Below, piece after piece: positions 7,491-42,719 of a stretch of 52,693 nt of DNA (positions are counted from its first letter, which is position 1; each line of letters begins with the position of its first letter). The notes beneath the pieces were generated by a model. The model was not told where the DNA came from. It saw only the letters and a program-made list of their open reading frames with translations, and did not search any database. The stretch lies in NCBI GenBank assembly GCA_947625335.1, contig CANQNY010000004.1:1-52693 (forward strand). The letters run 5' to 3'. Made by a program: the position numbers and the translations under genes. The stretch is from an uncultured Clostridia bacterium. Lineage in GTDB: Bacteria > Bacillota > Clostridia > Oscillospirales > Ruminococcaceae.

Positions 7491-7743
7491 AAATATTTCT
7501 TCCTTTGCTATGCGCTAGTACGTTAATTAAATATCACCACAATCATTATACCTTATTTTTCTAAAAATGTCAACTGCATAATTACAAGTCTGAAATATTT
7601 TCAACAGTCAAAGCAGACGGCAAGGGGTTTGGCAGTTTACAGTTGACAGGGTATAGTAAATAGTAATAAGTTCGTTCGCTGACGCGAACGGTTTTTGATT
7701 GCCATAAAGTAGAAAAGTTTGACGAATAACTTCACAATTATGA

Positions 7744-7866
7744 CGAGTTTTTGTCCACCCCACCGCCGTACAGAAAAGGACGGCTGAAAAAGAGCCGCCC
7801 AAACTTTCGTCCACACTTCCGCCGTACAGAAAACAACGTCCCAGTAAGAACAACGTCTTACTGGGA
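7744..7866 (-). repeat. tRNA-trailer repeat array A: two copies of the CTGTACGGCGG core alternating with hairpins
   Basis: Cores at 7744..7777 and 7801..7833 (+ strand CCGCCGTACAGAAAA); hairpins 7778..7800 (GGGCGGCT/AGCCGTCC on minus) and 7839..7866. Confidence 0.8.
7839..7866 (-). terminator. Intrinsic terminator hairpin of tRNA-Leu(GAG)
   Basis: Minus strand TCCCAGTAAGA-CGTTGT-TCTTACTGGGA (11-bp stem) then CGTTGTTTTC. Confidence 0.8.
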
Positions 7867-7889
7867 ACCGGTCAAGGGCATTGCCCTTG

Positions 7890-7973
7890 TGGTGCGAGTG
7901 ACGAGACTTGAACTCGTACGTCAAAGACACACGCCCCTCAAACGTGCCTGTCTGCCTATTCCAGCACACTCGC
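7890..7973 (-). tRNA. tRNA-Leu (anticodon GAG), CCA encoded
   Basis: GCGAGTG/CACTCGC acceptor stem, anticodon loop TTGAGGG on CACGT/GCGTG stem, long variable arm, T-arm CGAGTTCAAGTCTCG, encoded ACCA. Confidence 0.95.
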
Positions 7974-42174: not shown

Positions 42175-42341
42175 ATTTTTCCCTCCGTTTTAGATAATTT
42201 TGGGAATTAAAATGCGCCTTGGATTACATACCTATTATAACATACACTAATTAAATTGTCAAGAAAGAAGTAAGAGATAAGAGGTAAGAAGTAAGAGCGT
42301 TGCATTTAAATCTTATCTCACGAAAAAGATTTACGCAATAA

Positions 42342-42538
42342 CCGTACAGAAAACAACAAACCCAGCAGAGCGACACCCTGCTGGGAAATGGTCAACAAAT
42401 AATTTTTGTGCCGAGTTTTCGTCAACACTTCCGCCGTACAGAAATAACAAACCCAGCAGAGCAACCCCTGCTGGGAAATGGTCAACAAATAATTTTTGTG
42501 CCGAGTTTTCGTCAACACTTCCGCCGTACAGAAAAAAA
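42342..42538 (-). repeat. tRNA-trailer repeat array B: ~91-bp tandem repeat (two units plus partial) containing hairpin and CTGTACGGCGG core
   Basis: CCGTACAG at 42342, 42434, 42524 (periods 92 and 90 bp); near-identical intervening sequence; hairpins 42361..42385 and 42452..42475. Confidence 0.92.
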
Positions 42539-42540
42539 CG

Positions 42541-42568
42541 TCCCAGTAAGAGCAACGTCTTACTGGGA
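42541..42568 (-). terminator. Intrinsic terminator of tRNA-Leu(CAA)
   Basis: Minus strand TCCCAGTAAGA-CGTTGC-TCTTACTGGGA then CGTTTTTTTC. Confidence 0.88.
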
Positions 42569-42591
42569 ATCGGTGCAGGACATTGTCCTGC

Positions 42592-42678
42592 TGGTGCCGG
42601 TGGTGGGACTTGAACCCACACGACATTGCTGCCAACGGATTTTGAGTCCGTCTCGTCTGCCAATTCCAACACACCGGC
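42592..42678 (-). tRNA. tRNA-Leu (anticodon CAA), CCA encoded
   Basis: GCCGGTG/CACCGGC acceptor stem, ACGGA-CTCAAAA-TCCGT anticodon arm, variable arm, T-arm TGTGGGTTCAAGTCCCACC, encoded ACCA. Confidence 0.96.
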
Positions 42679-42690
42679 TAATACTTTACT

Positions 42691-42719
42691 ATTATACCAC
42701 ACCCGCGCCGATTTGTCAA
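42691..42719 (-). promoter_or_regulatory. tRNA promoter (TTGACA-17-TATAAT), -35 overlaps the rlmN stop region
   Basis: Minus strand TTGACA AATCGGCGCGGGTGTGG TATAAT. Confidence 0.8.

Follow-up and report, generated by a model that had tools for sequence, protein, structure and literature searches.

Hairpin cassettes behind tRNA genes in a Clostridia genus and their proposed relation to serine-recombinase islands

The window, the whole stretch of 52,693 nt that was analysed, carries a tandem array of hairpins and cores on its minus strand, directly behind tRNA-Leu(CAA). On balance, this array was interpreted as one member, decayed and internally duplicated, of a family of very small, non-autonomous integrative cassettes that extends across the genus and would accrete at serine-recombinase att sites behind tRNA genes. 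As read from the assembled sequence, the family has precise CCA junctions and a common right end, cassettes and islands have been gained at orthologous sites, and one protein gene contains a unit. The host (G000) is a gut bacterium with a genome of 2.24 Mb. All genomes compared were drafts, mostly metagenome-assembled, in which repeats are prone to misassembly; such an origin is made less likely by the consistency among many independent genomes, more so for junctions than for copy numbers.

The array behind tRNA-Leu(CAA)

The features of the array and of a second array in the window are given in table 1. The 45 nt upstream of tRNA-Leu(CAA) were conserved in the sister genome G024. Every part of the tandem array that the sequence-only reading had described after the tRNA was found on the minus strand, with corrections to its end and to the order of its periods. 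The third CTGTACGG, taken earlier as a truncated array end, continues via TTATTGCGTAAATCTTTTTCGT into a decayed 25-nt right end, and the corrected extent is about 42308-42591. The unit tail was matched to the unit by BLAST (query 21-92, 89%; right-end consensus AAATCTTTTTTGTAAAGGTTAGACA). The reported repeat periods of 92 and 90 had the right values in reversed order, the transcript order being 90, then 92. Direct repeats were spaced by 90 with outer copies 182 apart (identity 94% over 81 nt), and TRF gave a period of 90 bp with a score of 356, far beyond chance. Three terminator-like hairpins were counted against 0.6 expected in shuffled sequence; a GC-rich hairpin followed by a T run, the form predicted for an intrinsic terminator, was present at three sites. 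The two identical cores fit a local duplication within one family member, and the array is best read as an older, internally duplicated member; because its right end has decayed, the window copy is probably no longer mobile.

The two tRNA-Leu genes of the window (42592 and 7890) point in the same direction and lie 35 kb apart, whereas their counterparts in G024 are convergent neighbours (L448, C116). The gene downstream of the window's tRNA-Leu(CAA) is located after tRNA-Gln(UUG) in G024. From this comparison of the window with G024, the rearrangement breakpoints appear to fall within tRNA trailers.

Table 1. Positions of the array components and their anchors in the window.
Feature	Position	Strand	Basis
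Sigma-70-type promoter of tRNA-Leu(CAA), TTGACA-17-TATAAT	42691-42719	-	consensus match 12/12
tRNA-Leu(CAA), CCA encoded, array anchor	42592-42678	-	ARAGORN; Rfam RF00005, 52.2 bits
Hairpin A GCAGGACAATGTCCTGC, 7-bp palindrome, directly adjoining CCA; left end of unit	42575-42591	-	sequence
Hairpin B1 TCCCAGTAAGA..TCTTACTGGGA, then CGTTTTTTT; terminator-like	42541-42568	-	terminator scan, fold
First CTGTACGG core, linker type i, up to GTTGACCATTT	42476-42531	-	sequence, repeat comparison
Hairpin B2 CCCAGCAGGGGTTGCTCTGCTGGG and T-rich tail; terminator-like	42452-42475	-	terminator scan, fold
Second core, exactly the first core; read as local duplication	42386-42441	-	sequence, repeat comparison
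Hairpin B3 CCCAGCAGGGTGTCGCTCTGCTGGG and T-rich tail; terminator-like	42361-42385	-	terminator scan, fold
Unit tail: T-rich, CTGTACGG at 42342-42349, TTATTGCGT, decayed right end AAATCTTTTTCGTGAGATAAGATTT at 42308-42332	42308-42360	-	BLAST, family consensus
tRNA-Leu(GAG), second anchor	7890-7973	-	ARAGORN
Second array, behind tRNA-Leu(GAG)	about 7740-7889	-	sequence; same anatomy as first array
Second array, hairpin A CAAGGGCAATGCCCTTG	7873-7889	-	
Second array, hairpin B CCCAGTAAG..CTTACTGGG	7840-7865	-	
Second array, CTGTACGG copies	7822-7829 and 7766-7773	-	

A dispersed family at tRNA 3' ends

Confinement of the array to one locus, which had been named as one outcome that would speak against a mobile repeat, was not what the searches gave: a 90-nt query matched 37 places in the array's own genome and a 104-nt unit matched 44, so that the array belongs to a multicopy family. 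Within the genus, 13 of the 36 other genomes carried the unit; the 24 genomes taken from the order's other families gave no match (E <= 0.001 for both). Among public records it was carried by L140 (CANRIQ010000224.1) and L196 (CANQOJ010000023.1), both of them metagenome-assembled Clostridia whose sample names contain 'Lapin'; a contig pattern scan was too permissive (86 stretches, mostly chance matches in unrelated phyla), the unit being present only in these two. The Rfam scan proposed earlier as a check gave no family for the array, its tRNA being the sole match, and identity of the unit with an Rfam family was rejected, as only tRNA and tmRNA were matched at the covariance-model gathering score in the window and 17 copy-bearing loci.

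Read from the CCA, the unit consists of hairpin A, ACC, 3-4 nt, hairpin B (terminator-like), a T-rich stretch, CTGTACGG, a linker and the 25-nt right end. Cassettes are typically about 95-190 bp long and free of genes, including integration or transfer genes. Hairpin A most commonly takes the form GCAGGRCAATGYCCTGC or CAAGGGCAATGCCCTTG. The right end occurred 82 times (<=2 mismatches, 8 genomes) against 0 for a reversed control pattern, and directly past its CA a new trailer starts; a hairpin started right after it in 21/59 cases, against a rate of 7.6% at random positions; the tendency is genuine but incomplete. The same 25-mer also closes other cassette families, whose hairpins differ (CGCATTGAAG.., GCTTAGAAG.., GCCGGTGTGACCGGC..). 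In G031, which has no CTGTACGG unit, several tRNAs have a common trailer in the order hairpin A, ACC, hairpin B (GCAGCGTGACGCTGCACCC..).

At most loci read, the unit immediately adjoined the 3' end of a tRNA (Leu, Arg, Ser, Trp, Gln, Glu, Gly, Lys and others), and once behind tmRNA. The near-complete genome G034 (30 contigs, completeness 100) had 32 matches. Of these, 20 lay at most 600 nt downstream of a same-strand tRNA, where about 0.16 were expected, and none was on the tRNA's upstream side only. Distinct units in which hairpin A is nearly intact numbered 51, of which 28 directly followed a tRNA 3' end; the remainder mostly followed the right-end motif or lay within arrays, with few elsewhere. 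The earlier proposal of a tRNA-anchored mobile repeat is thus well supported by dispersed copies, precise CCA junctions, occupied and empty orthologous sites, and insertion into a protein gene.

A functional tRNA-trailer RNA (a small RNA or a 3'-processing signal), selected for its structure, would agree with the strong fold of the array (z = -5.75; 0/200 shuffles as good) and with the joint change of the arms of hairpin A. Pairing of these arms in 91 distinct units was 0.763, compared with 0.605 (max 0.675) after arms had been shuffled among units; as shuffling ignores relatedness, these values indicate joint change of the arms and not its frequency. For an sRNA released from the trailer, the third option raised earlier, folding was the sole support. 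At tRNA-Ser(GCU), hairpin A alone differs between G000 and G024, flanks and pairing being kept. This reading is nevertheless highly improbable, given that trailers of orthologous tRNAs are wholly different between species, that many tRNAs lack any, that insertions occur outside tRNA loci and that Rfam gave no match.

A second conserved trailer (..GTTGACAAAAAAGATATTATGCCC..GGGCATAAATCTT..GTGGACTTGAACCC) was seen behind tRNA-Gln(UUG), tRNA-Ser(UGA), tRNA-Ser(CGA) and tRNA-Pro(CGG) (L088, L092, L095 and L096 in G000; L366, L367), and also behind tRNA-Leu(CAA) in other species; its end resembles a tRNA T-arm read in reverse complement. On the minus strand of L025 (G000 C51, about 1575-1640), a tRNA-Thr(CGU)-like gene has a 21-nt palindrome, GGGATATGCTCCGCATATCCC, inserted in its D-arm region; it was not called by ARAGORN and is followed by a hairpin-A unit.

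Orthologous sites and serine-recombinase islands

Occupied and empty sites were compared directly at tRNA-Gln(UUG), the last gene of a Gly-Arg-His-Gln cluster in the species compared (strokes mark junctions). The site is empty in G005 (CCA/CGCATTGAAG..); G002 has a hairpin cassette of 96 bp with the exact 25-mer at its end (CCA/GCAGGGCAATGCCCTGCACC..AAATCTTTTTTGTAAAGGTTAGACA/CGCATTGAAG..); and G007 has an island at that base (CCA/AGTTGAAAGC..serine recombinase). A similar pair was found at tRNA-Arg(ACG) in G000 and G034. The window's tRNA-Leu(CAA) and its promoter are almost identical to those of G024, with wholly different sequence past the CCA, and nearly every species has its own version of this trailer.

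At tRNA-Gln(UUG) in G007, tRNA-Leu(UAA) in G000 and tRNA-Leu(CAG) in G009, a gene for a serine recombinase of 286-288 aa starts within about 130 bp of the CCA. Its product has Resolvase (PF00239) and Recombinase (PF07508) domains, and no recognisable zinc-ribbon domain was returned by the domain search. The G000 island (4.3 kb) lies between the CCA of tRNA-Leu(UAA) and the trailer units, and its right end is the variant AAACCTATTTGGTAACGATATGGCA. The G009 island (5.8 kb; CCA/AGTTGAAAGC..recombinase, AAA ATPase, FRG-domain protein..AAATCTTTTTTGTAAAGGTTAGGCA/ACTTAGAAG..) ends in AAATCTTTTTTGTAAAGGTTAGGCA, the same 25-mer as in cassettes, followed by ACTTAGAAGTAAGAGG. At the empty tRNA-Leu(CAG) sites of two relatives, the junctions are CCA/ACTTAGAAG.. 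in G002, where ACTTAGAAGTAAGAGG directly follows the CCA, and CCA/ACTTAGAGG.. in G005. Occupied and empty sites have only CA in common at the junction, a 2-bp overlap with no longer duplication, and exchange is therefore placed within the dinucleotide CA.

Each island of a second class has three genes for recombinases, of 520, 167 and about 555 aa, and both large proteins have a zinc-ribbon domain. These islands occupy other loci, their right ends are the same motif or close variants, and an unrelated tyrosine integrase lies upstream in two of them. Cassettes and recombinase islands, which have the right end and the CCA junction in common, stand in tandem at one target gene in G000 C41, G009 C5 and G033 C23. 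The pemK RNA motif (RF02913) was found upstream of three-recombinase clusters (L304, 7895-7969, minus strand; L308, 25-105, plus strand). Island cargo looked defence-like, with TIR/SEFIR, metallophosphoesterase, AAA/AbiEii-type ATPase, FRG and HD proteins (L303, L306, L311, L312, L226).

Ordinary tRNA terminators of the lineage could instead have been spread by gene conversion and unequal crossing-over, with no dedicated mobility and with islands just using the same hot spot. Such a history would suit the trailers of tRNA-Gln(CUG), inherited unchanged in G000 and G024, the change from one unit behind tRNA-Glu in G000 to three in its sister G024 by duplication, and the identical cores of the window; neither the tRNA-Glu duplication nor the replacement of hairpin A at tRNA-Ser(GCU) would require a recombinase. 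It is unlikely, since exact CCA junctions between tRNAs of different sequence do not readily arise by homologous recombination, whole cassettes, with CCA at one edge and the 25-mer at the other, occupy some orthologous sites and are missing from others, and a unit has entered a protein gene. The notion of a terminator-duplication array, also raised earlier, accordingly holds for the window's cores and the one and three tRNA-Glu units, but not for the array as such, which belongs to a dispersed family.

The unit in a protein gene was found in G000 C33, where it runs antisense within a DUF218-type gene and keeps the reading frame; the product has 325 aa, compared with 254-263 aa in the relatives aligned, in which the matches were uninterrupted and without the unit. 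In G000 C106 a unit lies beside a fumarase-like gene and is flanked by a 62-bp direct repeat. Both gene names refer to motifs recognised by eye, not by family search. The copy with the 62-bp repeat, the insertions into or next to protein genes (C33, C29, C16) and the perfect left-end palindromes would suit a MITE- or REP-like palindromic element that prefers tRNA 3' ends and whose mover would be a transposase with no relation to the islands, such as a hairpin-binding HUH enzyme. We regard this as decidedly unlikely: the Y1 (HUH) transposase domain PF01797 was absent from six of seven unit-bearing genomes, the array's own included, the single match (G034) has an internal stop, and the right end and CCA junction are those of the serine-recombinase islands. 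An HUH transposase was rejected as the mover on the ground of this absence from most carriers.

Proposed route of integration and known systems

In the preferred reading, a cassette would comprise a hairpin directly adjoining the CCA, a terminator hairpin and the 25-nt right end AAATCTTTTTTGTAAAGGTTAGA-CA. Cassettes and the 4-6-kb serine-recombinase islands would use one junction, with exchange inside the terminal CA of the tRNA gene. Each newcomer would adjoin the tRNA and shift older trailers downstream, and tandem stacks would therefore form; as each element would begin with a terminator, the tRNA unit would be re-terminated after every insertion and the host gene left unharmed. The hairpins are accordingly predicted to terminate tRNA transcription, the 25-mer may be one half of the recombinase attP, and we infer that the islands' large serine recombinases move the small cassettes in trans. 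A full attP is not evident in cassettes because their left ends are not conserved, unlike the left end of the islands; the idea that cassette left ends mirror that of the islands was rejected on inspection. If minimal elements entered by the islands' route, at the CA that ends a tRNA, this would be the simplest account of anchoring, islands, gains and insertions outside tRNA loci. The location of some units outside these loci counts against it, as does the lack of a recognisable zinc-ribbon domain in the 286-288-aa recombinase, although the 520- and 555-aa proteins of the other island class have one.

tRNA genes are classic landing sites of integrative elements. Integron arrays have a fixed anchor with a promoter and cassettes with a common conserved 3' site, the newest being nearest the anchor. 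The arrays described here resemble them in having an anchor with a promoter, a conserved 3' site and the newest cassette at the anchor, and differ in that the anchor is a tRNA gene, the cassettes are non-coding terminators and the candidate enzyme is a serine recombinase; neither an integron integrase nor attC was seen in the loci read. It is conceivable, and is put forward tentatively, that they form a tRNA-anchored, integron-like system in which non-coding terminator cassettes of about 100-190 bp are moved in trans by serine recombinases and are stacked and exchanged at the CCA of many tRNAs across the genus, the trailer being an interchangeable mobile part and not an inherited sequence.

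CIMEs, which take part in tandem ICE/IME accretion at tRNA 3' ends, are att-bounded elements without integration genes beside recombinase-bearing islands (PMC5704250). Like CIMEs (PMC5704250), the cassettes lack integration genes and lie in tandem behind a tRNA 3' end near islands, with ends that may be att-like; unlike CIMEs, they are non-coding, about 100-190 bp rather than kilobases long, and found at many different tRNAs and tmRNA, each has a terminator, and the tRNA 3' end is not duplicated, only CA being common. In the Dehalococcoides ssrA islands, the serine recombinases DsiB and DsiA comprise a large one and a smaller one in which no DNA-binding domain is detectable, and insertion occurs within the tmRNA T-loop of a single gene, leaving a 20-bp direct repeat (PMC3146451). 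Here too, serine-recombinase islands are stacked behind a structural-RNA gene, several elements lack integration genes, and a large recombinase occurs with a smaller one that has no recognisable DNA-binding domain; in contrast, insertion is past the CCA and involves many tRNAs, with members as small as a bare terminator cassette. Compared with CIMEs and ssrA islands, the cassettes are one hundredth the size and occupy many tRNAs. No description of such cassettes was found in the literature searched, the coverage of which excluded subscription journals; by this comparison they may be a miniature form of CIME-like tandem accretion, the miniature form itself being apparently new.

The smallest elements apparently contain little beyond a terminator and one att-like end, and trailers have been replaced in much of the tRNA set. 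Terminator-bearing cassettes would explain simply how tRNA genes survive many insertions, and they offer a tractable lower size limit for a mobilisable element. Serine recombinases that possibly accept many different tRNA ends would be useful if this proved true in vitro.

REP/RAYT and the in-frame Rickettsia palindromic elements are short dispersed palindromic repeats of bacteria. The units resemble both in being short dispersed palindromes, one of them in frame in a protein gene; unlike REP/RAYT, the Y1 transposase is absent from most genomes that bear them, they are found mainly past the CCA, and their right end is common to recombinase islands. REPs have been described as bacterial palindromic repeats (PMC3733652). 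Another dispersed palindrome (GCGTTATCCGC..GCGGATAATGCG) was nested in hairpin A of several units (L011, L018, L019, L067 and others), and the further repeats CCGTTCGCGCAAGCGAACG and GTTTACAGTAAACAGT followed many arrays.
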